Assembly: GCA_963971405.1 (NCBI GenBank)
Contig: OZ020489.1
Coordinates: 20,548,290-20,612,289 of the forward strand
Source: Psococerastis gibbosa
Lineage: Eukaryota; Arthropoda; Insecta; Psocodea; Psocidae
DNA: 64,000 bases
Direction of reading: 5' to 3'
The notes beneath the pieces are model-generated. The model did no database searches. It was not told the DNA's origin and saw only the letters and a list, made by a program, of their open reading frames with translations. Both the position numbers and the translations under genes were made by a program. Position 1 is the first letter of the stretch. Every line of letters starts with the position of its first letter. Below, in pieces: positions 4,236-64,000 of this stretch.

Positions 4236-5793
4236 CATGCGTTTGGACAAAAAAATATCGATGGCGCAGCAACAAAGGCCTGTAAGAGAGTATGCATGTT
4301 GAAAAGATTAGCAGGTACCACTTGGGGTGCAACGCAAGATGTCCTAGTCACCAACTACAAATCATACATAAGACCCCTTATTTGATACTGCTGCGAAGCC
4401 TTCTGTACAGCAAGTGTCGCTAACATGCGAAAACTGGACATTGCCCGAAATAATGCGCTGAAAGCTATCAGTGGGGCTGCCAAATCCACCCCTATCACAG
4501 CCTTGGAGTGTCAAACAGACATTGAACCACTAGAGTTGCGCCGCGACTGTACAACCCTTAAATTCTTTGAAGGAGGAGGAAGACTTCTGGAAACGTTGCC
4601 TTGCTTTTCCTTTCTTGGATGTCTTTTTTTATTTTTTCCACAATGGTTTGAAGAGGAGATGGGCCGTGACTTCCTGGTGGCTTCCTTGATACAACTTTTT
4701 TATTATTTGTAGTCGGATCCACACGTTTCATTTTGGTTAAGGCAACTCGCGATCGGAGAAACGGCATAGTATTTGCTGGCTTCTCTTCATTGCCTGGACC
4801 CCGCGTTGACATTGTTTTAATTTAGTTTCTCGTGGCCGTCTTGTTCAACTGTTTAACTGTTAGGGTTTTAGTACCAATAATAAACCTGCCACGTCGATGG
4901 AGGCCTTTAATTTCATCAACAAATCAATGCCTATAAGGCACTGTTGCCTCAGACCCTTAAGAAGGTTGAACCGATGGTTGACCATACGGGAACCAAGTTA
5001 AACTCGCTGCCAGGCGGTTCCCACGAGCTCTGCGTGCAATGAAGAGTCGGCTAACTTTACTCGACCAGACGTAGGCGTCACCCGGAAGCCACTCGTAACC
5101 AAAATGTCCCAGTAAGGGGCTGCTATTAGGGAAGAATTAGCGCCCGTGTCTACCAGCGTCGGAAAAAACGTTTCCCCTATTTTGACACGTAAGAAAGGTC
5201 ACTCAGCCAGCCCTACACATGCCAGCTCGATCTGCTCTGGCGCTGGAAAAGTAATCCTTAATATAATCCGCATATTCGGGATGTGGAGGGTCCATGTCAT
5301 CGGTGGTGTTGCTGGTTCCGTGGTTAGCGGTCTTCCAGTATTTCGCCCTCTGACTTTGTGGGCACTCACTGTGTTCATCCACGCCCTTTTGGCCACAATA
5401 TCCGCAAAATTCACGGCGGGCGGCCCCTCAATCTTAAAAAAAATGTTTTAGCGAATCGCAATTGTAACAAAGGCTCACCGCTGCTGCCTTTAAGTTGGTG
5501 TACGCATCGGCCATACATACATACGGTATTTTTGTCTGCCCAATATTAATTGTTGCTTCTATTTCTACACAGGCTGCCTCTAGTTGCCGGAAGCTGTAAA
5601 CGTCCGCGAAAATCAACTTTTCTCTGTAGAGAGGCAACAGGTTGTTGCGCACAAGGTTGACCTCATCAATTCCGAATATTGGCCAAGAATTCTACTGATC
5701 TCTGCCCCGGTTTCATCTTCCTGTAGTAGCGCTGCGTCACCCCGGACGACAGTGAACGCCTCCTGGAATTCCAACTCTGCAGATCCGGTAAGT
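3783..5793. repeat. Array unit 3 (short with extra knuckle segment, 2011 bp)
   Basis: Like units 1 and 2 but 120 bp longer, because it keeps a segment at about 5297-5424 encoding a second zinc-knuckle-like motif on the minus strand. It directly precedes long unit 4. Confidence 0.95.
4236..4610 (+). pseudogene. LINE reverse-transcriptase 3' fragment, unit 3
   Basis: Same fragment and ends as unit 1. It has the R variant (LELRRDCTTLKFFE), which is the form expected from the family, and a TGA instead of TAA after IRPLI. Confidence 0.8.
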
Positions 5794-6117
5794 GCACTTC
5801 AAACCATGTTTTTGCCGTCCGAGAGAGAAGATCGATCTAGCAAGCCAGGATAGATTAAATCCATCGGAAGTCCCGATTTGCTTGCCTCTCAAAGTCTCGT
5901 ACAAATTCTTCCTCCCAGAGAAACAGATGTCTCGGGAACGACAGACGCCCAGAAATTTAACCAGGGTCTTCCTGTAGCCACTCATGTCTTTCGAATGCCG
6001 GAACGGGTCGTAAGAGCGGCCATAAAAGGGTTGCTGGTGTTGCCAGGTCGGCGGTGGCTGTGGCCAGCCTGTTGTTTGACGGCTGGTGGGCACTCTGGTG
6101 CTGTGGTGGCGTATGCT
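4611..6117 (-). pseudogene. gag-protease module with second zinc-knuckle segment, units 3-4
   Basis: As the module at 830-2344, with two differences. The first knuckle (CYNCDSLKHFF) stays in frame but meets two stops. A second Cys/His cluster follows at about 5350-5390 (FCGYCGQKGVDEHSECPQ), with spacing CX2CX7HX2C, which is not the standard CX2CX4HX4C. The Pro/Gln-rich part carries small deletions and at 6117 abuts the viral-helicase frame rather than the LINE fragment. Protease at about 4912-5182. Confidence 0.7.
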
Positions 6118-7190
6118 TCGTTTGGTCGTTTAGTTTTCGTTCTATTCCCTCTATATACTGTTGGAGGTCACAATCGTCTAACCATCCATCCTGCGTTCTC
6201 ATGTCGGGAGTATTAATTGCCTGTATAGTACTATAGTGTTTAGGTCCACGGCTTGAGCAGGTGTCAAGTGCAGAGTCTGTTTTCTCTGACGCAGTGGCCT
6301 CAGCTGTCACAATTTGTTTTGACGTACAGGTAATTAGCCACAGCTGATTCCATTCATCGATGTTTTTGTTTGTTGTTGCCACTATAAATCTTGAAAGAGA
6401 GTCATCGGCAGCAGCTGTTATGTATTTCAAAGATTGTTTGTGCTTACTAATGGCAGCAATAGCATGTGGAACGCTGTGGTAGATGTGATTTTCCTCACGA
6501 TTTAGCCTTACAATCGCTATGTTGTCTGTGCAACCACCCTGCAGTTCATGGTCAGTATAACATTGATTTCCATATTCCTGTACTCCCTGCTTGATTAACT
6601 CTCCTTTTTTCAATTTTAGTGAAAGTAAGGTATATATTGTTTGGATAATTTGGCAATGGCGTGTTTTGGCTAATCGGGATTTGTTCAAGTGACGTCACTA
6701 CTTTGATTGTAGTGTGAATGTTTTTGTATAAATCTTTTAATGCAAAGCATAGGTCAGCGGGGCAGCGATGTGTGGTCGATATTTCCTCTGTAATTTTGCC
6801 CCATATATATCAGGCCTATGGAATTTTAAACCAGAGGGGCACACTTTTTCCCTGTCCAGGTTAGGAATTGGGTTGGAGTGCCCGAGTACCAGTATTTCTT
6901 TGCACTCAGCTTTGATGGCAGAAACTCATAAAGATCCGGCATGGAGTAGCTATCCCTTGTCTACTATGACCCTATCAAATTTTATTTCGGAGCCGTTAAT
7001 TAGGATTGATGCGACAGTCCTGTAGTCTTTTTGGAGAACGGCCCGCTTTATACCGTACGCATTCGTTACAGCATGTATCACGGACTTGACTCCTTCTCTG
7101 GTCGCTGTTAAAATTTTAAATCCTTCCCAGGGATATGGTTTTTTATAACCTAAGTCGTTTTTCCACAACCCGAATCCATTTCCGAACAGT
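6118..7190 (-). pseudogene. Endogenous RNA-virus superfamily-1 helicase, copy 1 (unit 4)
   Basis: Minus strand, read downward. Motif I (Walker A) DSGCGKTT lies at about 7153-7176 and is followed by a TAG. In a second frame motif Ia is ILTATREGVKSV. Motif II is FDRVIVD at 6959-6980, then a TAG and a HAG tripeptide. Motif III is VLGHSNPIPNLDRE at about 6850-6892. A YRP..AAPLTYALH segment follows, then a stop. In the long frame 6688-6118, motif V is HELQGGCTDNIAIVRL (residues 47-62) and motif VI is PHAIAAISKHKQSLKYIT (74-91). Motif order, spacing and the HAG after Walker B fit viral SF1 helicases of alpha-like/virga/nege-type replicases (Pfam Viral_helicase1 family). At least four stops or frameshifts make it non-functional. 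No methyltransferase or RdRp is seen. After motif VI about 100 further residues continue before gag sequence begins at codon 191. Confidence 0.82.
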
Positions 7191-8117
7191 CATCTAGCCC
7201 GATTTCTATGACTTTGCCCAGGCTTGCTATTTCTTCTGAAAGTGGTTTTAATATCGTCGATTATGTGCCTATTTTGTCCTTTGTCAAGTCAGCAATTACT
7301 ATTGGCTTCCTGTTGTGGCCTAAGATAGCCTTACATGTCACTTGGTTTAGTTTTAAGGTTGGTAGTCTGTTGAAGTCATCCTGCTGCAGCCGCTTTTTTG
7401 TGTGGGGAAAGCAGCGTGCTAGCCCACGTGAGATGTCATATTTGCCCTCTCTACCTTTATTGGCAAATGAAATTGTCAAATGGACCTTTTCGTGCAAGCA
7501 GTAAGTAGAGGTCACCAGGGTTTTCTTACCTACATGGAATTGTTCGTGGCTACTAGGTACTTATTCCAGTCATCACTTGATACAGGTTTAAAGTGTGGCT
7601 TTTTTACTGGTGATAAGCTAATAAGATATTTATTAGGGAACGCTTTAGGGATAGTGGCCTCTTTCCAGCAAAGAAGGGTTTCATGCTTACTTGCCATTTG
7701 GTGAGTTTGTATCGTCACCGTCTCCAGCTGACCGGGTGGCTTAGTTTGTGTGCCGTGGTTGCTACTGCTGTTGCGTGGCTCAGTTTGGGGTGCTCTGTGG
7801 CGGCTGCTGCTGAATGGCACAGTTTGCTTGGCTGCCTCATTGTTCCGGTGGTCTCTTTGGATTCCAACTTCGACAAATATCTTGCTTGGTGCAATTATTT
7901 GTGAGGTTTGTGTGGCTCCATCTCGGGTCTGGTTGTTTAAGCCAATCGTCTTTGCTTGCTTGCTTCTGCATTTCTGCATTTTTCTCTTAAGTCGTCTAGA
8001 AAAGGTTTTCTCTTTCCTTTGTGGCTTTATGCTCAACTTCACACGGTTTGTGCACTTCCTCCTGTGTCATGGATTCTTTGGGGGATATGGAGTCCGTCGT
8101 ATCACCTATCCCTTCTT
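7191..8117 (-). pseudogene. Unassigned minus-strand coding remnant upstream of helicase (unit 4)
   Basis: Two open stretches lie N-terminal to the helicase on the same strand. 8042-7530 (about 170 codons) begins basic (KPQRKEKTFSRRLKRKMQK) and becomes Ser/Thr/Gln/Pro-rich, with two TQT tripeptides (GATQTS, HGTQTK). 7515-7261 (about 84 codons) is followed after one stop by KPLSEEIASLGKVIEIGLDD, which runs directly into helicase motif I. The second stretch could be the natural N-terminal neighbour of the helicase in the viral replicase; the first looks like a disordered linker. Neither is recognised. Junction with the retrotransposon linker is at about 8117, shared with the other long units. 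Confidence 0.5.
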
Positions 8118-9601
8118 TCTTGGATGTCTTTTTTTATTTTTCCACAATGGTTTGATGAGGAGATGGGCCGTGACTTCCTGGTGGCTTCCTTGATACAACT
8201 TTTATATTATTTGTATTCGAATCCACACGTTTCGTCTCGGTTAAGGCAGCTTTCGATCGGAGAAACGGAATAGTATTTGCTGGCTTTTCTTCATTACCTT
8301 GACCCCGCGTCGACATTGTTTTAATTTAATCTCTCGCGTCCGTCTTGTTCAACTGTTTCTGTAAGGGTTTAAGTACCAATTATGAACCTGCCACGTCGAT
8401 AGAGGCCTTTAATTTCAACAGCAAATCAATGCCTATAAGGCACGGTTGCCTCAGACCCTTAAGAAGGTTGAACCGATGGTTGATCATACGGGAACCAACT
8501 TAAACTCGCTGCCAGGCGGTTCCCACGAGCTTTGCGTGCAATGAAGAGTCGGCTAACTTTACTCGACCAGACGTAGGCGTCACCCAGAAGCCCCTCGTAA
8601 CCAACATGTCCCAGTAAGGGGCTGCTATTAGGGCAGAATTAGCGCCCGTGTCTGCCAGCGTCGGAAATAACGTTTCCCCCATTTTGACACGTAAGAAAGG
8701 TCACTCAGCCAGCCCTACACATGCCAGCTCGATCTGCTCTGGCGCCGGAAAAGTAATCCTTAATATTATCCGCAAATTCGGGATGTGGAGCGTCCATGTC
8801 ATCGGGCGGCCCCACAATCTTTAAAATAATGTGTAGCGAATCGCAATTGTAACAAAGATTCACCGCTGCTGCCTTGTTGGTGTACGCATCGGCCATACTT
8901 ACATACGGTATTTTTGTCTGCCAAATATTAATTGTTGCTTCTATTTCTGCACAGGCTGCCTCTAGTTGCCGGAAGATGTAGACGTCCGCGAAAATCAACT
9001 TTTCTCTGTAGAGAGGCAACAGGTTGTTGCGCACAAGGTTGACCTCATCAATTCCGAATATTGGCCAAGAATTCTACTGATCTCTGCCCCGGTGTCATCT
9101 TCCTGTAGTAGCGCTGCGTCACCCCGGACGACGGTAAACGCCTCCTGGAATTCCAACTTTGCAGATCCGGTAAGTGCACTTCAAACCATGTTTTTGTCGT
9201 CCGAGAGAGAAGATCGATCTAGCAAACCGGGATAGATTAAATCCATGGGAAGTCCTGATTTGCTTGCCTCTCAAAGTCTCGTACAAATTCTTCCTCCCAG
9301 AGATACAGATGTCTCGGGACTGACAGACGCCCAGAAATTTAACCAGGTTCTTCCTGTAGCCACTCATGTCTTTCGAATGCCGGAACGGGTCGTAAGAGCG
9401 GCCATAAAAGGGTTGCTGGTGTTGCCAGGTCGGCGGTGGCTGTGGCCAGCCTGTTGTTTGACGGCTGGTGGGCACTCTGGTGCTGTGGTGGCGTATGCCA
9501 AGCTTGTGGAAACTGTTGCTGCGGCTGCTGTGTAACTGTCGCCCGAGGCGGCTGTTGGGCAGTCGGCTGCTGCAGTGGAGCACTCCACTGCGGTGGCATC
9601 G
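8118..9601 (-). pseudogene. gag-protease module, units 4-5, best-preserved protease
   Basis: The protease frame is open from 8682 to 8500 with GETLFPTLADTGANSALIA, then ends at the same TAA seen in all copies; the hydrophobic GIDLL motif follows near 8411-8440. The knuckle has the single form. The Pro/Gln-rich part in unit 5 carries a roughly 26 bp net deletion relative to units 1-3, explaining the 1985 bp length of unit 5. Confidence 0.72.
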
Positions 9602-11160: not shown

Positions 11161-11484
11161 GCACTTCAAACCATGTTTTTGCCGTCCGAGAGAGAAGATC
11201 GATCTAGCAAGCCAGGATAGATTAAATCCATCGGAAGTCCTGATTTGCTTGCCTCTCAAAGTCTCGTACAAATTCTTGCTCCCAGAGAAACAAATGTCTC
11301 GGGAACGACAGACGCCCAGAAATTTAACCAGGGTCTTCCTGTAGCCACTCATGTCTTTCGAATGCCGGAACGGGTCGTAAGAGCGGCCATAAAAGGGTTG
11401 CTGGTGTTGGCAGGTCGGCGGTGGCTGTGGCCAGCCTGTTGTTTGACGGCTGGTGGGCACTCTGGTGCTGTGGTGGCGTATGCT
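9977..11484 (-). pseudogene. gag-protease module with second knuckle, units 5-6
   Basis: Same layout as 4611-6117, including the unusual second Cys/His cluster and junction to helicase at about 11484. Protease at about 10279-10549. Confidence 0.7.
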
Positions 11485-12545
11485 TCGTTTGGTCGTTTAG
11501 TTTTCGTTCTATTCCCTCTATATACTGTTGGAGGTCACAATCGTCTAACCATCCATCCTGCGTTCTCATGTCGGGAGTATTAATTGCCTGTATAGTACTA
11601 TAGTGTTTAGGTCCACGGCTTGAGCAGGTGTCAAGTGCAGAGTCTGTTTTCTCTGACGCAGTGGCCTCAGCTGTCACAATTTGTTTTGACGTACAGGTAA
11701 TTAGCCACAGCTGATTCCATTCATCGATGTTTTTGTTTGTTGTTGCCACTATAAATCTTGAAAGAGAGTCATCGGCAGCAGCTGTTATGTATTTCAAAGA
11801 TTGTTTGTGCTTACTAATGGCAGCAATAGCATGTGGAACGCTGTGGTAGATGTGATTTTCCTCACGATTTAGCCTTACAATCGCTATGTTGTCTGTGCAA
11901 CCACCCTGCAGTTCATGGTCAGTATAACATTGATTTCCATATTCCTGTACTCCCTGCTTGATTAACTCTCCTTTTTTCAATTTTAGTGAAAGTAAGGTAT
12001 ATATTGTTTGGATAATTTGGCAATGGCGTGTTTTGGCTAATCGGGATTTGTTCAAGTGACGTCACTACTTTGATTGTAGTGTGAATGTTTTTGTATAAAT
12101 CTTTTAATGCAAAGCATAGGTCAGCGGGGCAGCGATGTGTGGTCGATATTTCCTCTGTAATTTTGCCCCATATATATCAGGCCTATGGAATTTTAAACCA
12201 GAGGGGCACACTTTTTCCCTGTCCAGGTTAGGAATTGGGTTGGAGTGCCCGAGTACCAGTATTTCTTTGCACTCAGCTTTGATGGCAGAAACTCATAAAG
12301 ATCCGGCATCCCTTGTCTACTATGACCCTATCATATTTTATTTCGGAGCCGTTAATTAGGATTGATGCGACAGTCCTGTAGTCTTTTTGGAGAACGGCCC
12401 CCTTTATACCGTACGCATTCGTTACAGCATGTATCACGGACTTGACTCCTTCTCTGGTCGCTGTTAAAATTTTAAATCCTTCCCAGGGATATGGTTTTTT
12501 ATAACCTAAGTCGTTTTTCCACAACCCGAATCCATTTCCGAACAG
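11485..12545 (-). pseudogene. Endogenous RNA-virus SF1 helicase, copy 2 (unit 6)
   Basis: Motifs I, Ia, II, III, V and VI as in copy 1. The long C-terminal frame is 12055-11324 and fuses to gag. About 10 bp are missing next to motif II relative to copies 1 and 4, so the frame reads VIVDKGC and continues past the stop seen there. Confidence 0.8.
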
Positions 12546-12846
12546 TCATCTAGCCCGATTTCTATGACTTTGCCCAGGCTTGCTATTTCTTCTGAAAGTG
12601 GTTTTAATATCGTCGATTATGTGCCTATTTTGTCCTTTGTCAAGTCAGCAATTACTATTGGCTTCCTGTTGTGGCCTAAGATAGCCTTACATGTCACTTG
12701 GTTTAGTTTTAAGGTTGGTAGTCTGTTGAAGTCATCCTGCTGCAGCCGCTTTTTTTGTGTGGGGAAAGCAGCGTGCTAGCCCACGTGAGATGTCATATTT
12801 GCCCTCTCTACCTTTATTGGCAAATGAAATTGTCAAATGGACCTTT
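12546..12846 (-). pseudogene. Helicase-upstream remnant, truncated (unit 6)
   Basis: Equivalent to 7191-7490 of unit 4: the stretch immediately N-terminal to helicase motif I. It is cut at about 12846 by fusion to gag. Confidence 0.5.
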
Positions 12847-13448
12847 TGCCTCTAGTTGCCGGAAGATGTAGACGTCCGCGAAAATCAACTTTTCTCTGTA
12901 GAGAGGCAACAGGTTGTTGCGCACAAGGTTGACCTCATCAATTCCGAATATTGGCCAAGAATTCTACTGATCTCTGCCCCGGTGTCATCTTCCTGTAGTA
13001 GCGCTGCGTCACCCCGGACGACGGTAAACGCCTCCTGGAATTCCAACTTTGCAGATCCGGTAAGTGCACTTCAAACCATGTTTTTGTCGTCCAAGAGAGA
13101 AGATCGATCTAGCAAACCGGGATAGATTAAATCCATGGGAAATCCTGATTTGCTTGCCTCTCAAAGTCTCGTACAAATTCTTCCTCCCAGAGATACAGAT
13201 GTCTCGGGACTGACACACGCCCAGAAATTTAACCAGGGGCTTCCTGTAGCCACTCATGTCTGTCGAATGCCGGAACGGGTCGTAAGAGCTGCCATGAAAG
13301 GGTTGCTGGTGTTGCCAGGTCGGCGGTTGCTGCGGCATATGTGGCGGCGGTGGCTGTGGCCAGCCTGTTGCTTGTGACGGCTGGTGGGCACTCTGGTGCT
13401 GTGGTGGCGTATGCCAAGCTTGTGGAAACTGTTGCTGCGGCTGCTGTG
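12847..13448 (-). pseudogene. gag remnant without knuckle or protease, units 6-7
   Basis: Starts at the gag position just upstream of the knuckle and runs through the capsid-like and Pro/Gln-rich parts. It is cut at 13448 within the Gln-rich stretch (TQQPQQQFPQAWH), where it joins helicase-upstream sequence. Confidence 0.65.
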
Positions 13449-19660: not shown

Positions 19661-20637
19661 TTCGTTTGGTCGTTTAGTTTTCGTTCTATTCCCTCTATAT
19701 ACTGTTGGAGGTCACAATCGTCTAACCATCCATCCTGCGTTCTCATGTCGGGAGTATTAATTGCCTGTATAGTACTATAGTGTTTAGGTCCACGGCTTGA
19801 GCAGGTGTCAAGTGCAGAGTCTGTTTTCTCTGACGCAGTGGCCTCAGCTGTCACAATTTGTTTTGACGTACAGGTAATTAGCCACAGCTGATTCCATTCA
19901 TCGATGTTTTTGTTTGTTGTTGCCACTATAAATCTTGAAAGAGAGTCATCGGCAGCAGCTGTTATGTATTTCAAAGATTGTTTGTGCTTACTAATGGCAG
20001 CAATAGCATGTGGAACGCTGTGGTAGATGTGATTTTCCTCACGATTTAGCCTTACAATCGCTATGTTGTCTGTGCAACCACCCTGCAGTTCATGGTCAGT
20101 ATAACATTGATTTCCATATTCCTGTACTCCCTGCTTGATTAACTCTCCTTTTTTCAATTTTAGTGAAAGTAATGTATATATTGTTTGGATAGTTTGGCAA
20201 TGGCGTGTTTTGGCTAATCGGGATTTGTTCAAGTGACGTCACTACTTTGATTGTAGTGTGAATGTTTTTGTATAAATCTTTTAATGCAAAGCATAGGTCA
20301 GCGGGGCAGCGATGTGTGGTCGATATTTCCTCTGTAATTTTGCCCCATATATATCAGGCCTATGGAATTTTAAACCAGAGGGGCACACTTTTTCCCTGTC
20401 CAGGTTAGGAATTGGGTTGGAGTGCCCGAGTACCAGTATTTCTTTGCACTCAGCTTTGATGGCAGAAACTCATAAAGATCCGGCATCCCTTGTCTACTAT
20501 GACCCTATCATATTTTATTTCGGAGCCGTTAATTAGGATTGATGCGACAGTCCTGTAGTCTTTTTGGAGAACGGCCCCCTTTATACCGTACGCATTCGTT
20601 ACAGCATGTATCACGGACTTGACTCCTTCTCTGGTCG
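19661..20637 (-). pseudogene. Endogenous RNA-virus SF1 helicase, copy 3, lacking Walker A (unit 10)
   Basis: Motifs II, III, V and VI are retained; the C-terminal frame is 20232-19501 and fuses to gag. The deletion at 20637 removed motif I. The join creates a frame at 20737-20450 in which Ser/Pro-rich upstream sequence runs into TREGVKSVIHAV of motif Ia. It shares the small motif II-adjacent deletion with copy 2. Confidence 0.78.
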
Positions 20638-24427: not shown

Positions 24428-25500
24428 TTCGTTTGGTCGTTTAGTTTTCGTTCTATTCCCTCTATATACTGTTGGAGGTCACAATCGTCTAACCATCCAT
24501 CCTGCGTTCTCATGTCGGGAGTATTAATTGCCTGTATAGTACTATAGTGTTTAGGTCCACGGCTTGAGCAGGTGTCAAGTGCAGAGTCTGTTTTCTCTGA
24601 CGCAGTGGCCTCAGCTGTCACAATTTGTTTTGACGTACAGGTAATTAGCCACAGCTGATTCCATTCATCGATGTTTTTGTTTGTTGTTGCCACTATAAAT
24701 CTTGAAAGAGAGTCATCGGCAGCAGCTGTTATGTATTTCAAAGATTGTTTGTGCTTACTAATGGCAGCAATAGCATGTGGAACGCTGTGGTAGATGTGAT
24801 TTTCCTCACGATTTAGCCTTACAATCGCTATGTTGTCTGTGCAACCACCCTGCAGTTCATGGTCAGTATAACATTGATTTCCATATTCCTGTACTCCCTG
24901 CTTGATTAACTCTCCTTTTTTCAATTTTAGTGAAAGTAAGGTATATATTGTTTGGATAATTTGGCAATGGCGTGTTTTGGCTAATCGGGATTTGTTCAAG
25001 TGACGTCACTACTTTGATTGTAGTGTGAATGTTTTTGTATAAATCTTTTAATGCAAAGCATAGGTCAGCGGGGCAGCGATGTGTGGTCGATATTTCCTCT
25101 GTAATTTTGCCCCATATATATCAGGCCTATGGAATTTTAAACCAGAGGGGCACACTTTTTCCCTGTCCAGGTTAGGAATTGGGTTGGAGTGCCCGAGTAC
25201 CAGTATTTCTTTGCACTCAGCTTTGATGGCAGAAACTCATAAAGATCCGGCATGGAGTAGCTATCCCTTGTCTACTATGACCCTATCAAATTTTATTTCG
25301 GAGCCGTTAATTAGGATTGATGCGACAGTCCTGTAGTCTTTTTGGAGAACGGCCCCCTTTATACCGTACGCATTCGTTACAGCATGTATCACGGACTTGA
25401 CTCCTTCTCTGGTCGCTGTTAAAATTTTAAATCCTTCCCAGGGATATGGTTTTTTATAACCTAAGTCGTTTTTCCACAACCCGAATCCATTTCCGAACAG
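24428..25500 (-). pseudogene. Endogenous RNA-virus SF1 helicase, copy 4 (unit 12)
   Basis: Same content as copy 1, including motif I at about 25464-25487, motif Ia and II in the frame 25479-25261, and motifs V and VI in the frame 24999-24268. It keeps the stop after VIVDKG found in copy 1. Confidence 0.82.
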
Positions 25501-26426
25501 TCATCTAGCCCGATTTCGATGACTTTGCCCAGGCTTGCTATTTCTTCTGAAAGTGGTTTTAATATCGTCGATTATGTGCCTATTTTGTCCTTTGTCAAGT
25601 CAGCAATTACTATTGGCTTCCTGTTGTGGCCTAAGATAGCCTTACATGTCACTTGGTTTAGTTTTAAGGTTGGTAGTCTGTTGAAGTCATCCTGCTGCAG
25701 CCGCTTTTTTTGTGTGGGGAAAGCAGCGTGCTAGCCCACGTGAGATGTCATATTTGCCCTCTCTACCTTTATTGGCAAATGAAATTGTCAAATGGACCTT
25801 TTCGTGCAAGCAGTAAGTAGAGGTCACCAGGGTTTTCTTACCTACATGGAATTGTTCGTGGCTACTAGGTACTTATTCCAGTCATCACTTGATACAGGTT
25901 TAAAGTGTGGCTTTTTTACTGGTGATAAGCTAATAAGATATTTATTAGGGAACGCTTTAGGGATAGTGGCCTCTTTCCAGCAAAGAAGGGTTTCATGCTT
26001 ACTTGCCATTTGGTGAGTTTGTATCGTCACCGTCTCCAGCTGTCCGGGTGGCTTAGTTTGTGTGCCGTGGTTGCTACTGCTGTTGCGTGGCTCAGTTTGG
26101 GGTGGTCTGTGGCGGCTGCTGCTGAATGGCACAGTTTGCTTGGCTGCCTCATTGTTCCGGTGGTCTCTTTGGATTCCAGCTTCGACAAATATCTTGCTTG
26201 GTGCAATTATTTGTGAGGTTTGTGTGGCTCCATCTCGGGTCTGGTTGTTTAAGCCAATCGTCTTTGCTTGCTTGCTTCTGCATTTCTGCATTTTTCTCTT
26301 AAGTCGTCTAGAAAAGGTTTTCTCTTTCCTTTGTGGCTTTATGCTCAACTTCACACGGTTTGTGCACTTCCTCCTGTGTCATGGATTCTTTGGGGGATAT
26401 GGAGTCCGTCGTATCACATTTCCCTT
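25501..26426 (-). pseudogene. Helicase-upstream coding remnant (unit 12)
   Basis: Equivalent to 7191-8117 of unit 4; the 170-codon Ser/Thr/Gln-rich frame is at 26354-25842. Confidence 0.5.
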
Positions 26427-31084: not shown

Positions 31085-31712
31085 GTGGCCTAAGACCGGG
31101 CCCTCCAAACAGACTTTAAAAGATTGATAAACGACTTGATAATACAACTTAGAAGTATCACCGGGATCGATGTTCTATGCTATGGAGACAACCTAACAAT
31201 CTGGGGCACGTCCTGCAATATACAAGCCCTCGAGTGAGCACTGAACCAAGCCCTGCATGTCCTGAGAGCGTGGTGTGCGGAAAATGAGATGCTCTTCAGC
31301 AAAGGCAAAACTACTGCACAACTTTTCTCCCTGTCTACCAAGAACCACACAGTCAACTTAAAATACGACGACTGCGACATTGCCGTAGTTGCCAACTCCA
31401 AATACCTTTGCATGCTTTTGGACAACAAAATATCGATGGCGCAGCAACAAAGGCCTGTAAGAGAGTATGCATGTTGAAAAGATTAGCAGTGGGGTGCAAC
31501 GCAAGATGTCCTAGTCACCAACTACAAATCATACTGAAGACCCCTTATTGAATACTGCAGCGAAGCCTTCTGTACAGCAAACTTGTGTCGCTAACATGCG
31601 AAAACTGGACATTGTCCGACTTAATGCGCTGAGAGCTATCTGCGGGGCTGCCAAATCCACCCCTATCACAGCCTTGGAGTGTCAAACAGACATTGAACCA
31701 CTAGAGTAGAAA
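31085..31712 (+). pseudogene. LINE reverse-transcriptase remnant, same family as the array LINE fragment
   Basis: Plus strand: a decayed palm box VLCYGDNLTIWGTS (normal consensus Y/F-A-D-D), then after a stop ALNQALHVLRAWCAENEM, VNLKYDDCDIAVVANSKYL, LLDNKISMAQQQRPVREY, then GATQDVLVTNYKSY and LIEYCSEAFCTA, and a frame-broken ALECQTDIEPLE counterpart. From about 31413 it is clearly homologous to the 375 bp fragment in the array, and it extends further 5'. Several frameshifts and stops. Confidence 0.75.
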
Positions 31713-32857: not shown

Positions 32858-33620
32858 TCATAGCCCTATTTTTGCGTCTTGCCAGTCCACTTGCCCTTCC
32901 CCAACGAAATATTCTGCAAACTTTTCGCGCACAAGCTTTGCTGACATACTTGCATTTCTCGATAAAGTGCACTGAAGGCTGGGTTGTAAATTATACTCTT
33001 CATTTTCCTCACCAGTGTCTTCTACGTTGTATGAGTTTGTACTATACAATTTCTTCTGAGAAAATTATGTAGAATAACAACATGTAAGAACGACAATGTC
33101 GATCCGCTCTAATGACAAGTTAATGCTTGTATGAAGTATTCGAAACCTGCTGGCCAAAATTCCAAAAACATTTTCAACAATTCTTCTTGCCCTGGATAAG
33201 CGGTAGTTAAAAATTCGACGCTGTGTGTTCAAATTTTGTTGGCTTAAAGCAAACGCTTCATCCCCAATAAAAACATATGACACTTGGGTCATGCCATCTG
33301 ATAGAAATTGCGGAGGAGGCAGGTTCAGTTGATGATTTTCAAGTTTCTTGAAGTACTCGGTATTTCTTATAACTCCGCCATCTGATCTGCGACCATTTGT
33401 ACCGACATCCACCCAGATAAACTCGTAGTCGGCATTAACGCAAGCCATGAGTACAATAGAATGGAAGTGTTTGTAATTGTAAAAGTAAGACCCGCTTCCG
33501 GGAGGTGGAGTTATTCTGATGTGCTTCCCATCCCAAGCACCAAGACAATGCGGAAAATTCCATATTTTTTCGAATTGCTCAGCAACTTCCCTCCATTCTT
33601 GCTCTGTACTAGGACTCTGA
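32858..33620 (-). pseudogene. PIF/Harbinger DDE transposase, 3' exon with one stop
   Basis: Minus strand. After a good acceptor (ttattattttcag) the exon encodes SPSTEQEWREVAEQFEKIW, the GAWDGKHIRI block, YNYKHFHSIVLMAC, VDVGTNGRRSDGG, a FIGDEAFALS block, and RARRIVENVFGILASRFRIL. These correspond to the Asp-Asp-Glu catalytic blocks of the DDE_Tnp_4 family. The C-terminal part (LVREKFAEYFVGEGQVDWQD) follows in the same frame after a TAA at 33065-33067. The N-terminal exon is not identified. One stop in otherwise well-conserved sequence suggests recent decay. Confidence 0.85.
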
Positions 33621-33700
33621 AAATAATAAAGTTGTAATTTAGAATCTCGTAAGTACACTGCTCTGCGATTTGTTATTAAACAGAGATATAATTGTTCCAG

Positions 33701-34118
33701 GCAAGCGATTCCATCGATTCAGAACAAAGTGTTTCGAGCCCAGCGAGTGTATATTCTACGTCATCGTCGAAGCAATTCAAAAGACCAGCAACAAAAGCTC
33801 ACTTGGTTTTGGAAAAAATATCTAAGAGGTTGGATGTAACTGGTGGCCAAACCGCAGTTGCAAAATTGAAGAATAAACATGAGGCAAAACTTCGAGCGAT
33901 TGAAATGGTTCCTTTCTGTCAGAAAATGATTAGTGAAGTGCTTTTTTTTTGCCGAACTTCGCACCCTTAACGTTACTAGTAGGATAGTAACCGATAATTA
34001 TCCCCCACCTCCCCCTCTCACTTCTTCTCATGACACTTCATCAGGCTCGGTTAATAAAGTAATGCAAGCTTATGAAGAGGCAATGGATGATGAATACCGT
34101 TGTGAGGATTTGGGGTGA
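33701..34118 (+). pseudogene. Harbinger partner (MADF/Myb-like) gene, 3' part, frameshifted
   Basis: After an acceptor-like 'ttgttccag', a Ser-rich stretch leads to FKRPATKAHLVLEKISKRL, VAKLKNKHEAKLRAIEM and FCQKMISEVLFF. This fits the C-terminal region of the SANT/MADF-type protein that accompanies Harbinger transposases. A run of T at about 33943-33952 shifts the frame; the other frame resumes with FAELRTLNV and ends at TGA near 34118 after AYEEAMDDEYRCEDLG. It is divergent from the transposase, 80 bp away. The 5' exons are not identified. Confidence 0.6.
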
Positions 34119-43500: not shown

Positions 43501-43571
43501 CAAGTGAAGTGAAGTGAAGTGAAGTGAAGTGAAGTGAACTAAAGTGAAGTGAACTAAAGTGAAGTGAAGTG
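43501..43571. repeat. (GTGAA)n minisatellite with variants
   Basis: Runs of gtgaa interspersed with 'ctaaa' variants. The second element copy has a longer version at 59158-59262. Confidence 0.9.
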
Positions 43572-43859
43572 ATGTGTAGGGTTTAGCCTCCCAGCTGCCT
43601 GAAGTCGTTCTACCTGCTATCTGTCACTGCAGCATTGGCTTTTTTTAATGGCCGGGTCCACAGCAGATTCTTAATCCAGGGCGCCTTCTACGCTCTTCTG
43701 TCTGGTATGTACTAATAAAACTGTGATTCCGCCATTTTGAACTCAACTGACAACATTGACACACTATTCAACTCTTCCGCCTAATTGCCAGTCCCAATCT
43801 ACCTCTGTACTGTTCAATGACTGCGGTCACCGGTCAGGCATGAATTCCAAAATGAAGGT

Positions 43860-46647: not shown

Positions 46648-46925
46648 TCTAAGAAAAGCTTTGTGGTGGTCGACATTTTTGATTGCGAGATTCAAGATTC
46701 GACTGGATTTATACGTGTTGAGACCCATGTAAGCAAAAAGTGGTTGTCTGTTCATCGATTTGTGTTGAGTTGAAATTGGGTAGGTTCAGAAAAAGCATAA
46801 TTTTTCTTACTGGGCTAACTCAATTTTATGGTGATATAATTTACCCCCCTGAAAAAGACTTAAATTTTTTTCTAGAAAATGGCTACACCGATTTTCTTTA
46901 AAATCGCATACACAGTCAAATTCAA
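46648..46925 (+). mobile_element. Element X copy 4 (partial)
   Basis: Begins 'cttatgcgtagtctaagaaaagctttgtggtggtcg' directly after the exon-like segment and fades at about 46925. Confidence 0.55.
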
Positions 46926-48003
46926 GCTATTAAGATGGTCACCCACTACTCAGGGACCAAAGGTCAAGTGCGCAGAACATACTGCGCCTAAATTCTGTTG
47001 TCTGCCTGTTGAATTGTTAATTTGTTAACATTTCCCGATATATTCTTAGTTTTGCAACCCTACAACCTGGAAATAATTAATCGACGATGAATTGACTAAT
47101 GGCACCTGTGTTTGCTCGCTATCCGCCATGCTTAGCTTATGGTTAGGGGCGAGTTATTATTATTTTTATTATCGTTGAACTTCTGCATTATAGTGCAACA
47201 CTTTGCTGTTGTTTTTACAGTTTACGTGGTAACTATTCTTGAGGCAACCTTAGATCATATAATACTCTAGACATGGCGTTCTAGATGCACTGCATGAGAA
47301 AGTTGGGGCACCAACATTATGTTTATCACAGCCCAGATTACCTATCAACAAAGACTTTGTTGCTAGTCAGGTATCCTGGTCACCCGAGGGAGTAGTTTGT
47401 TTTTTGAAAAATTGACGGAATGATCGTTAAAAGCTTCTAATTGAATACATGAACATTAAAAATAAGTTTCACCAAATTAAAAAATGTTTTCTAGCTCCAA
47501 ATAATTAATTAACTAAACAAAACTTGAAAATAATAAGTTCGCGCCTCTAAAAGCAACTGCTTTTGCCAGTGTGTCACGTCATTTCATGTTGGCCCCTCGG
47601 ACATTCTAGAGAGTTTTGTGAATTAAATGGTCTAAGGAAGCGACAGTACAATATTTTCGGTTTGTGCATCGCAATACTCGTATGTTCCCAATTTATATCG
47701 ATGACGTGCATGTTTCCATGGTTTACCACGCAACCTAATTGCAATGTAACTGCAAAGGCCGGAGTCAAATGGAGAGCCAGTAGCATCCAGGCTGATGGGC
47801 CGTGGTCGAGATCAAAGTGAACTTCCAAACGTTTCGTCAACATCTGCGGTCGACATCTTCAGTGGCGCTGCCTAGACTTCGGAGGTTGTACCTCGGTGGC
47901 TCCGTAGCATCAGTCCGGATTCTACTGGTTCTTCATTAACCTAATTGCACCTATTTTGTTACTGGAGAGTGTTTGTTCTATGATATGATCAATTTAATTT
48001 TTC
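46926..48003. other. No gene recognised
   Basis: AT-rich. Two short overlapping frames at 47563-47843 have no recognisable content. Confidence 0.4.
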
Positions 48004-48005
48004 AG

Positions 48006-48193
48006 GCTCTCACCATTTCTATAACAACGCGAAGGTGCTTTCTCCCCAAGATTTCCACGGGTGGTTTATCACGTACGATAATAATGAGGAAGGTGTCAGC
48101 GCAATGAATGGATATGGGTTGATCGCATATGGAAGGGAAGTAGACCCCCTAGCTGGCTCGACATACGAAAATGTTCGTACTGCTGTTGTCAAG
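48006..48193 (+). CDS. Exon-like segment with splice sites, 62 codons, open
   Basis: Acceptor (aatttttcag) then one open frame: SHHFYNNAKVLSPQDFHGWF, ITYDNNEEGVSAMNGYGL, REVDPLAGSTYENVRTAVVK, then donor gtcaag|gtacgt. No domain recognised. Preserved reading frame and both splice signals suggest a real internal exon of an unknown gene or of a transposon; no neighbouring exons found. Confidence 0.4.
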
Positions 48194-48211
48194 GTACGTA
48201 TTTATATTTTA

Positions 48212-48660
48212 TTTTGTTTTCATACTTATGCGTAGTCTAAGAAAAGCTTTGTGATGGTCGACATTTTTGATTGCGAGATTCAAGATTCGAGTGGATTTCT
48301 ACGTTTTGAGGCCCAAGTAAGCAAAAAGCATATTTTTCATACTGGACTAACTCAATTTTATGGTGTTAAACCCCTCTGAATAAGGAATAATTTTTTTTTC
48401 TCGAAAACGGCTACAACGATTTTCTTGAAAATCACATACATTTTAGTCGTTTGCTCATTTTCATGAAAAATGAGTAAAAAATAATTTTTCTTCGGAATCA
48501 TTGTATCAATGCTTTCCAACTTCTGTAAGGTATTAGGTGTTAAATAGAGTGACAAAAGCGAACAGGTTGCTTTCCCAAGCAAAGATTTCGTATTGAATAA
48601 AAAATTATTTTTTGAACAAATTTTGGATTTTAATTCATGCCCCAAATACATTGCATACCC
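48212..48660 (+). mobile_element. Element X copy 5 (partial)
   Basis: Begins 'cttatgcgtagtctaagaaaagctttgtgatggtcg' after the exon-like segment, as in copy 4, so exon and element were duplicated together. Confidence 0.6.
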
Positions 48661-51764: not shown

Positions 51765-53665
51765 ATATCTGTATATGCCTACAAGCCAATCAATCACATG
51801 ACGAAGTTATTGATAACTTCTATGAAAATTTATCAGTGATACTAAAGCTCAGGAGAATCTGATTATAATGGGAGACTGGAACGGTGTACTAGGAGAAGGC
51901 AGTGAAGGAAACCTTGTTGGTGCTTTCGGACTAGGAACAAGAAATCCAAGAGGGGACAAGTTAGCCGAGATCTGTGCCAGACATAACCTAGTAGCTGCAA
52001 ACACACTTTTCGAACATCATCCAAGAAGGAGGTATACGTGGATATCTCCAGGCGATAGAATAAGGCTCCAACTGGACTATATATTAATTCGACAAAGATT
52101 TAAAAACCAGCTGAAAAATTGTAGGGCATACTCTAGCCCAGACATAGACAGCGATCATAATATGGTCATGGCGAAGAGCACTCTTAAACTAAAAACGCTA
52201 AAGAAGAAAAAAGCAATGACATTGAACTTGGCAAAATTCAAAGATCCAATTGTAAGAGACAGATACCAAAGGAAAATTGATGAAAATGCGAGTGCATACC
52301 GCCCAAACGGAGGAGGAATGGACGAAATCAAGCGAACTGCCTGTGAAGTACTTGGTAAAAGAGTATCAGCAGCAAGAAGGGACTGGATAGCGGATGATAT
52401 ATTACAGCTTATAGATGAAAGAAAAGCAGCCAAAAAGAATGGAGATGATGTACTATATAGGTTTCTTCGCAACAGAATAAACAGAGAATCGGGGATCGCT
52501 AATGAAACTTACTATCAAGCTCAATGCACTGGGATTGACCAGTGTGGTACCAGGCAACGGGGATATGCCTTAGAGAAAGGTTTCATTGGACACAATAAAG
52601 GAAGAAGTGGGGCTATAGAGGATACAAATGGCAATATGCTCTTCCAAGATGACCTGATCAGCAAGAGATGTAAAGAATACATAGAAAGTTTATACTGTGA
52701 AAACGAACGTTACGACGAGCGAGACATCGTAGAAGACGTAAATAGTATTGCCGATGAAGAAGGAGGAATGGGTGACAAAATTCTAAGAGAAGAATTGGAC
52801 AAAGCAATTAAGAGACTAAAGAATATAAAATCTCCTGGCATAGATGATATCCCCGCAGAACTCTTGAACAATACGTACGAGACAATGCTTTTCAAAATTA
52901 TTTCTGATGCCCATGAGTCAGGACATGTGCTCGATGACTTGAAGAAGTGCCGTATTGTGACTCTGCTGAAGAAAGAAGGAGCCGTAAAATGCGAGCACCA
53001 TCGAAAACCAAGTATAATGTCACACGCCTCGAAAATCCTCACAAACATTATGCTAGATAGAATTGAGCCGGTTATAGATAGAAATGTAACACACGACCAA
53101 TGGGGCTTTAGGAGAGGGATGGCGACAAGAGAAGCAATTATAATATTCCTGAAAAAAAAAACTAAAAAAGGGAAAAGACACCTATTTTGTATACGTAGAT
53201 CTGGAAAAAGCATTTGAAAAAGTGTCGTGGAAAAAGTTGTTTGAGATCCTGAGGAAATCCGGGCTGAAATACAAAGACAGAAAAATCATATGGGCCCTCT
53301 ACAAGGAATAACTGGCTATCGTCCGGTGTGGCAACTCAGAAGAAGAAGTGGTGATAAAAGCCGGAGTAAGGCAGGGATGCTTACTCTCCCCTGTGTTTAA
53401 TCTGTACATTCAGTATGCAATAAAAGAGGTGAGAGAAGATCTGGAAGGTACAAGAGGTATAAGAATGCTCGGGAAAAAACAAATATGGTCAGGTATGCAG
53501 GCGACATTGCTATGTTGGCAGAAAACGAAGAAGATCTGACCGAAGCTCTAAATGCCATGGAGATTGGAGAAGGTACTACAAGCATACAACATGCACATTA
53601 ACAAGGCAAAAACCAAAGTGATGGTAGTAAGTACTGACCTGAACAAGAGCCCAAATGTGGAGCTT
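51765..53665 (+). pseudogene. LINE endonuclease/reverse transcriptase, 5' part
   Basis: Begins inside the endonuclease (IDNFYENLS, then NLIIMGDWNGVLGEG). Visible endonuclease blocks are YTWISPGDRIRLQLDYILI and DIDSDHNMVMAK. RT fingers and palm follow: LKNIKSPGIDDIPAELL, HDQWGFRRGMATREAI. At an A run (about 53150-53160) the frame shifts, then continues VYVDLEKAFEKVSWKKLFEI, GVRQGCLLSPVFNLYIQ, and a mutated palm box VRYAGDIAMLAENEE, where the catalytic Asp pair is broken. The first 449-codon frame is 51868-53217. The 5' end is truncated, frames are broken, and a TIR element splits it from its 3' part at 55643. A member of the APE-endonuclease LINEs common in insects; clade not assigned. Confidence 0.85.
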
Positions 53666-59157: not shown

Positions 59158-59262
59158 AAGTGAAGTGAAGTGAAGTGAAGTGAAGTGAACTAAAGTGAAG
59201 TGAAGTGAACTAAAGTGAAGTGAACTAAAGTGAAGTGAACTAAAGTGAAGTGAAGTGATACG
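59158..59262. repeat. (GTGAA)n minisatellite, copy 2
   Basis: About 105 bp of gtgaa and ctaaa units; longer than the copy at 43501. Confidence 0.9.
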
Positions 59263-62345: not shown

Positions 62346-64000
62346 TGCCAATACATAATCAAGTCCACGGCCCTCGTGACCTGAAGTTAGAAGCATTTCT
62401 CGCCGCTCTCAGTTCAATCGGGAGTTTTCTAAGGCAGGCGAAACCTTGTAGTATAGGATCCAGTCGCTCACACTTGGCTGTGCGTGGCGCTGGCCTAACA
62501 AGGTCTCCCCATTGCCTCGTGTTGTAGGTGTGAGTGTCCCCCATTTCTTTAAATGTCCCCCACACCTCAGGCTTTAAGATATGTAAGATGTAGCTAAATA
62601 TTTACAGACTTGGGGCTGTCATGATTTTTAATGATTTGAAGTGAGAGCGACAACTGTCACGGGGTCCCAGTTTTAGCATGTATCGCACTCCCCTCTTTTG
62701 AAGCCTGAGTACAGCGTCCATGTTCCCTACGGAGGTCCCTCCCCAGGCCAATATGCCGTAATTTATATGGCTCATTTCAGGTGAGTGGTAGGCCTGGAGA
62801 GTTACCTTTGGAGAACACACAGAGCTAAGGCACCTGACTACATAGAGGCCACTATTTGGTTTTTTTAATAGCTCAGACGCGTATTTATTTCAGTTTAAGT
62901 CCTTGTCAACTAGCATTCCTAAGAATCTGACGCTGTCGGTTGCGGTTACTGGTTGTCCTGCTATGCATGGGTATATGTCAAGCTCAGGTTGGGAGTTAGA
63001 GAACACTGTTAGTTGCGTTTATGTTTCGTTTAGCAAGAGCCCATGTGTGGCAAATTCGAGTCTTATGTCATCTAGCTTTTTAGTGCACATTATCGCAGTT
63101 TCTTCTATTGAAGGACCAGTTCTGATGAGCTTAGTGTCGTCCGCGAACATCAGCCTTTCGTTTCCATTACTTTCAAGTAGTGAGTTGACATAGAGTAGAT
63201 AGAAAAGTGGTCCCATAACGGAGCCTTGCCCTACGCCTATGTTGTTTGTAGCTACTTCTGATTGGTAATCTTCTGTCTGATCTTCCACTTCTGGATTTTG
63301 GTCTTGGATTTCTACGTGTTGTTTTCGGTCAGATATGAAGCTTGTGATCCAGTTTAATGCTTCTCCTCGTATACCGTAGCACACTAGCTTCTCCAGTAGT
63401 AGTTTATGCTGTACGCAGTCGAATGCGGCTGTGAGGTCTAGGTAAGCGCCTATTGTGATGAGCTTTTTGACTTTGTTGTTCAATATGTGCCCGAGTGCTT
63501 TGATGACAGCGTCAGTTGTCGATTTACCCTTTAGGAACCCCAGCTGATTAGGACTTATTATGAGGTGTTTTTCAAGGAAAGCTAATAATCTTTGGACAAA
63601 AACCTTTTCAAAGACCTTTTAAAAAAGAGAGTTAAGCGCTATTGGCCTATAGACTACTGGTTCATGTCTGTTTTTTCACCCTTGTTTTTGTATATTGGCT
63701 TAATTTTTGCCGTTTTCAGTGCTGCTGGGAATTTTCCTTTCATGAATGACGTATTAATTAAGAATGTAATTGGTTGTGCTAGCGCCTCTGCTTTGTTCTT
63801 CAGTAAGTTTGATGAAATCCCATCAGGTCCACATGAATGGGTATTTTTTAATTCGGCTTTTTACTTCAACGCTATCTGTAGGTGTGATAATAAATCAACT
63901 GGATATTTTCTTCATGATACCCAGTGGCCGTGTGCTAGTTCCCTTCCCAATTACAGCTTGAGCCTTTTCGCTGATTTTTATCGGCTTGCTTATGAGAAAG
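62346..64000 (-). pseudogene. LINE reverse transcriptase of another family (runs off window)
   Basis: Minus strand. From the window edge: YRPIALNSLF, a stop, KVFEKVFVQRLLAFLEKH, LGFLKGKSTTDAVIKALGHI. Then an open frame 63483-63019 has LDLTAAFDCVQHKLLLEKL, VGQGSVMGPLFYLLYVNSLL and an intact FADD box (LMFADDTKLI). Later come VTATDSVRFLGMLVDKDLN, MSHINYGILAWGGTSVGNM, LQKRGVRYMLKL, YNTRQWGDLVRPAPRTAKCE and LRKLPIELRAARNASNFRS. The order is typical of Jockey/CR1-like LINEs with no RNase H. Several stops (one in the fingers region, one after LLLNET). The endonuclease part lies beyond 64000. Confidence 0.85.

Follow-up and report, generated by a model that had tools for sequence, protein, structure and literature searches.

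The locus raises the question of how the motifs of an RNA virus helicase came to lie within a tandem repeat of an insect genome. The window (the whole stretch analyzed, 64,000 nucleotides of Psococerastis gibbosa, C14:20548290-20612289 in a searched genome of 409 Mb and 68 contigs) carries these superfamily 1 (SF1) motifs on its minus strand. The original prediction took them for a non-retroviral endogenous viral element and expressly not for part of a retrotransposon enzyme. We found that the DNA is 88-93% identical to ORF1 of a LINE with an endonuclease and a reverse transcriptase, and that the closest relatives found are LINE copies on contigs C21 and C12 and three unnamed proteins, not viruses. 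The helicase is very probably a dead fragment of the ORF1 of this resident LINE, multiplied within a satellite. What was read as an RNA-virus fossil in a satellite was thus likely misread, and is better described as a virus-type helicase, in a LINE ORF1, in a satellite.

The helicase remnant and its repeat unit

The motifs lie in the first block of the window, which has the following parts.

1-27940, minus strand: tandem array of 13 units with a spacing of 1891 to 3382 bp, built from a gag/protease part and the 5' part of a LINE ORF1
5001-5198, minus strand: retroviral-type aspartic protease remnant (PF00077 RVP, E 2e-4)
5417-6116, minus strand: LTR-retrotransposon-type gag remnant, frame-broken
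6117-8114, minus strand: insert of the long units, the LINE ORF1 5' part including the helicase remnant
11484-12847, minus strand: helicase-bearing copy in unit 6
19661-20637, minus strand: helicase-bearing copy in unit 10, without the Walker A end
24428-26426, minus strand: long-unit insert of unit 12, full-length and with 99.6% identity to the insert in unit 4

The short units are 1891 bp long and have in common with the long units the gag/protease part as well as ~130 bp from the start of the LINE. In place of the 1998 bp of LINE ORF1 in the long units (6117-8114), the short units have 478 bp of a different sequence (2241-2718); a portion of this is a dispersed repeat that recurs at 31410-31707.

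The predicted motif series is present, in the predicted order, on the minus strand at 7190-6118, where it is split among five pieces, each bounded by stops, that lie in two reading frames. We scanned 10 minus-strand pieces of this unit against Pfam, 8 from the LINE part and 2 from the gag/protease part. One of the ten, 5960-6694, matched PF01443 Viral_helicase1 (E 1.3e-4; score 22.3 bits, cut-off 21), and over motifs V and VI the same piece aligned with the tomato mosaic virus helicase (PDB 3vkw, E 8e-4). The proposed search for Viral_helicase1 was therefore positive for the C-terminal piece and negative for the others: the remaining helicase pieces had no helicase match in Pfam at E 10, and two of them had no match in PDB at E 10. 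The letters read as a Walker A motif (DSGCGKTT) are there, as only the second half of the motif, with a junction inside it. Four helicase copies do occur in the window, in units 4, 6, 10 and 12, that of unit 10 beginning after the Walker A region.

Each of the 8 loci compared, two of them within the window, showed a matching set of four motif-bearing pieces, equal in length, and in a few other copies the frames over the C-terminal helicase piece were somewhat longer (267 to 321 aa). Among the matches listed, stop-free coverage of the helicase was seen only in the row for C21. Neither an intact helicase nor a complete set of helicase motifs was found among the array copies examined, and these copies cannot make a working helicase. 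What the array holds is a broken viral SF1 helicase of the tobamo/virga type, multiplied in tandem, as had been predicted.

The parent LINE

At C21 the helicase lies within an open frame of 1130 aa, ORF1 of a LINE. Residues 573-828 of this ORF1 matched Viral_helicase1 (PF01443, E 5.3e-32) and residues 960-1069 matched Peptidase_C48 (PF02902, the C48/Ulp1 family, E 1.5e-12). The ORF1 matched the PDB structures of the tomato mosaic virus helicase with an E of 2.7e-33 and of SENP8 with an E of 4.9e-13, and an alignment to SENP8 1xt9 had an E of 5.4e-14. The full set of helicase motifs is in place, as are, by the alignment to 1xt9, the His, Asp, Gln and Cys of the protease, which in SENP8 we take to be catalytic and read as such in the C48 domain of C21. 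About 90 bp 3' of ORF1 a 597-aa frame carries an endonuclease (E 1.8e-5, below the Pfam cut-off) and the start of a reverse transcriptase (E 3.8e-9), and the reverse transcriptase goes on in a second frame (RVT_1, E 8e-11, above the cut-off). Since an endonuclease and a reverse transcriptase follow the helicase/C48 ORF1, we classified the parent element as a LINE. The endonuclease matches at C21 and C12 ranged from E 1.8e-5 to 3.3e-4, all below the Pfam curated cut-offs. A protein search with ORF2 gave 24 matches, which bore neither clade nor taxon names.

C21 was the only copy seen with a fully open ORF1, and its ORF2 is frame-broken. Comparison of the C21 ORF1 with five fossil stretches gave dN/dS values of 0.55-0.76, and two values between fossils, among the pairs computed, were 0.77 and 1.05. 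An AlphaFold model of ORF1 was poor, with a mean pLDDT of 48.

The insert and its surroundings map onto this LINE as follows.

6115-7172, minus strand: ORF1 helicase remnant, from the latter half of motif I as far as motif VI, with 93.5% DNA identity to C21
7176-8243, minus strand: N-terminal part of ORF1, ahead of the helicase, with 88.2% DNA identity to C21
8244-8325, minus strand: additional 5' sequence of the minus-strand ORF, lying upstream of where homology to C21 starts
62383-64000, minus strand: ORF2 from this LINE family (its reverse transcriptase region), with 90.7% DNA identity to C21

Residues 6-375 of ORF1 correspond to 8243-7176 and residues 578-928 to 7172-6115. The similarity between ORF1 and 6117-8114 is not due to chance: it scored 461 bits, while of 200 controls made by a rough shuffle of dinucleotide blocks 3 had any match, the best with 24.3 bits, and the reversed sequence had none. 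About 600 bp of the C21 LINE, between the N-terminal and helicase parts, are absent from the array, and the resulting junction falls inside Walker A. A copy at C14:41.57 Mb retains part of this stretch (from aa 438 onward), so the gap represents a loss in the array. At the other end, homology to the LINE stops at about aa 928 of ORF1, where the gag part starts; past this residue ORF1 runs on into C48 in both C21 and C12. Because the array retains sequence further upstream, the C21 copy seems to lack its 5' end, and 8244-8325 is probably the start of ORF1 that this truncated copy has lost. Within the ORF2 copy of the window, 63022-63618 matched RVT_1 with an E of 1.2e-17.

Four dispersed helicase copies were present among the listed matches to a 245-aa query, at C21, C12, C14:41.57 Mb and C14:22.53 Mb. 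Although degraded, the C12 copy aligns to the helicase, C48, endonuclease and reverse transcriptase in the order of C21, with 93% identity to the C21 endonuclease and reverse transcriptase over 2.4-kb stretches; its piece 4817-5401, which aligned to C48, matched no Pfam family at E 0.1 on its own. In a further copy, at 0.62 Mb on C13, C48 stands immediately upstream of the endonuclease. A TATTG-rich tail ends all three of the LINE copies compared.

The array and the macro-repeats around it

To count the helicase-bearing copies we searched the genome with the 245-aa piece and considered the best 150 of 260 places, which makes the counts lower bounds. At least 48 such places lie on C14 at 20.228-20.884 Mb (4 with motif VI only) and at least 27 on C3 at 25.589-25.888 Mb, each of the latter as two frame-shifted rows; the remaining places were gag parts or extra rows of the same copies. 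The array at 1-27940 is one block of the C14 array. On C3 the array has a regular period of 3393 bp and the same LINE-gag junction as in the window. These many head-to-tail, near-identical copies identify the structure as a satellite or macrosatellite.

Sequence outside the array is repeated as well. The stretch 46700-48300 occurs 7 times on C14, including the window's own copy (5 whole, 2 split by ~0.85 kb), and 5 times on C3, always split, with 99% identity over 1.4 kb and 95% over the first 213 bp. For the ORF2 copy at 62383-64000 we counted 7 occurrences on C14, all scoring the same, 5 on C3 and one at a single C13 locus. The repeats are spaced 55-108 kb apart and span C14:20.37-20.87 Mb and C3:25.56-25.87 Mb. 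Because these non-array stretches recur on both contigs, the array blocks are parts of a macro-repeat, and the window is apparently part of a macro-repeat common to C14 and C3. At C13:10.75 Mb (C13:10745500-10753500) both array flanks (99.0%, and 94-97% in pieces) enclose two gag-LINE units, neither with the helicase part; this low-copy version is possibly an ancestral or a shrunken state of the array.

In the preferred order of events, a LINE copy would have landed 3' of a gag/protease piece of an LTR element, and the DNA from gag through the ORF1 5' part would then have been multiplied head to tail, by unequal exchange or a similar process. The multiplied units would have lost coding capacity and been homogenized, and a second round of amplification may have turned the array blocks and their flanks into the macro-repeats of C14 and C3.

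Compatible with the LINE origin is the reading that the host keeps the array, either as a source of small RNAs against the LINE or as centromeric or pericentromeric DNA. The arrays are long, mostly on one strand and homogeneous, they occur on two contigs, and the C3 array lies near the middle of its contig (25.6-25.9 of 50.3 Mb; the C14 array is at 20.2-20.9 of 46.5 Mb). However, the C14 array is partly inverted, with its part at 20.22-20.28 Mb on the plus strand relative to the rest, and we consider retention by the host unlikely. A by-product of recombination is the best explanation of the array.

Three further features of the window lie outside the array: a DDE_Tnp_4 transposase fragment at 33068-33718 on the minus strand (E 5e-29), another LINE-like fragment at 51826-53214 on the plus strand whose weak endonuclease and reverse transcriptase similarity falls below the Pfam cut-offs, and two (AAGTG)n microsatellites of one unit type at 43502-43576 and 59158-59258.

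Origin of the helicase and comparison with known elements

A protein search with ORF1 residues 380-1130, in which the 7990 candidates sharing most words were scored, gave 5 matches. Three were unnamed proteins of 638-737 aa with 33-38% identity, which share with the LINE the region before the helicase and in which we looked for C48 and saw none. The other two were a plant virus replicase (32%) and an unnamed protein with a methyltransferase and a helicase (30%). In a 7-row helicase tree of the kind originally proposed, the two viral-type proteins were included and the C21 copy, a second genomic copy and the three unnamed proteins grouped apart from them (96/96), one of the viral branches being very long. 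A protein search with the 245-aa piece gave 0 matches from 41 candidates. Scans of a viral contig collection, presumably consisting mainly of DNA viruses and so implying no absence from RNA viruses, found no relative.

A piece of a virga/nege-like virus genome could in principle have been inserted directly and then amplified, as an independent non-retroviral element. The helicase is clearly of viral type by Pfam and PDB, and the plant virus replicase is the only named relative among the 5 matches. Yet the DNA identity to the LINE ORF1, the endonuclease and reverse transcriptase adjoining it at both C21 and C12, and the three unnamed proteins, which are closer than any virus found, all point to the LINE, and no viral methyltransferase or RdRp model was matched among the 13 array pieces scanned. 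We regard direct insertion as very unlikely.

The gag part of the unit offers a second source. Part of it has ~70-72% DNA identity to an open gag-like ORF, L038:3-1655 on the minus strand (C2:3.9 Mb), although the gag pieces tried had no Pfam match, and the protease piece of another unit matched RVP with an E of 0.018. (The L038 frame sits a few kb from a P-like transposase frame that bears C48.) Had the helicase been a domain of this gag/protease LTR retrotransposon, it would resemble published Copia fusions, and helicase-LTR fusions are reported from Aedes and Leptopilina (PMC5563155). Helicase and gag are directly joined in the array, and the open frame 5960-6694 runs from one into the other. 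This frame, however, is not that of gag itself, since the L038-like gag sequence is read in another, at 5737-6129. The LINE part breaks off abruptly where gag begins, at a residue past which the C21 and C12 ORF1 continue into C48, and the L038 ORF had no helicase match within the 551 aa seen. An LTR-element origin is accordingly most improbable. A Helitron/Pif1-like or cellular SF1 helicase can be dismissed almost with certainty: the general AAA_19 model matched the helicase region of the C21 ORF1 more weakly (E 1.4e-5) than the viral SF1 helicases that gave the strongest matches in both Pfam and PDB, and neither a Pif1 nor a Helitron model appeared among the matches, at thresholds of E 0.1 for this ORF1 and E 10 for the window pieces, which upholds the original family call.

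With the LINE as the preferred source, its ORF1 is a chimera of an N-terminal region, a tobamo/virga-type SF1 RNA helicase and a C-terminal cysteine protease of the C48 (Ulp1/SENP8-like) type, the helicase presumably having passed to it from a positive-strand RNA virus lineage. Viral SF1 helicases within LINEs, including Jockey ORF1, have already been published (PMC5563155 and PMC4686597). The SF1H Jockey-like LINEs of Hemiptera and Orthoptera (Morozov et al. 2017, PMC5563155) are alike in having a viral-type helicase in ORF1 and an endonuclease/reverse transcriptase ORF2 downstream, a likeness of domain layout. They differ in that the ORF1 described here adds a C-terminal C48/Ulp1 domain and that a fragment of it was amplified as a satellite. 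The SF1H TRAS LINEs of Lepidoptera (Lazareva et al. 2015, PMC4686597) also captured a tobamo/virga-type helicase, which there stands at the C-terminus of ORF2 and not in ORF1 as in the Psococerastis LINE.

NeSL LINEs, like Utopia, have a restriction-like endonuclease. Both the nematode NeSL and the Utopia LINEs (PMC4640811) resemble our element in carrying an Ulp1-like cysteine protease on a non-LTR retrotransposon; Utopia is described in that work with a restriction-like endonuclease and an N-terminal protease, whereas that of the Psococerastis ORF1 is C-terminal. The word helicase is absent from that paper (PMC4640811). Satellites derived from retrotransposons, with tandem arrays made from retrotransposon parts, are likewise known (e.g. 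PMC7004042); the present unit differs in that it joins LTR gag/protease to a LINE ORF1 inside 55-108 kb macro-repeats on two contigs.

What appears to be new is the joining of a helicase and an Ulp1 protease in one LINE ORF1. A literature search that covered few subscription journals found no published report of this combination. Few LINEs are known to carry a helicase, and one with a SUMO-protease-like domain now joins them, which suggests that such LINEs may gather means of countering host silencing and SUMO control. The ORF1 protein of a living LINE would bind the RNA of its own element. By analogy, the helicase would most likely unwind or protect that RNA, aid reverse transcription or blunt RNA silencing, and the C48 domain might remove SUMO or a related modifier from host factors. 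Silencing suppression has been proposed for other SF1H LINEs. Transposon-encoded helicases are reported to have a weak silencing-suppressor effect in a plant system (PMC6338049 and PMC4686597). Endogenous viral elements that consist of a helicase alone should be checked for a LINE origin.

The C48 part of ORF1 matched 13 places in the genome. Two of these were scanned and proved to be P-element-like transposases with a C-terminal C48, 38% and 40% identical to the C48 of the LINE.

L035:4676-8170 (C15:10.66 Mb), minus strand: P-element-like transposase with C48, THAP and TNP-like RNase H
L037:4433-5746 (C20:15.13 Mb), plus strand: C48 protein with a P-element transposase C-terminal model

The two share C48 with the LINE and differ from it in being DNA transposons, with no helicase listed. 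For Ulp1 domains of DNA transposons a role in transposition has been suggested (PMC2836005). The chances are about even that ORF1 combines three sources, its own N-terminus, an RNA-virus helicase and a SUMO-type protease common with P-element transposases. Were that so, the element could pair RNA unwinding or silencing suppression with the removal of SUMO from host defence factors.
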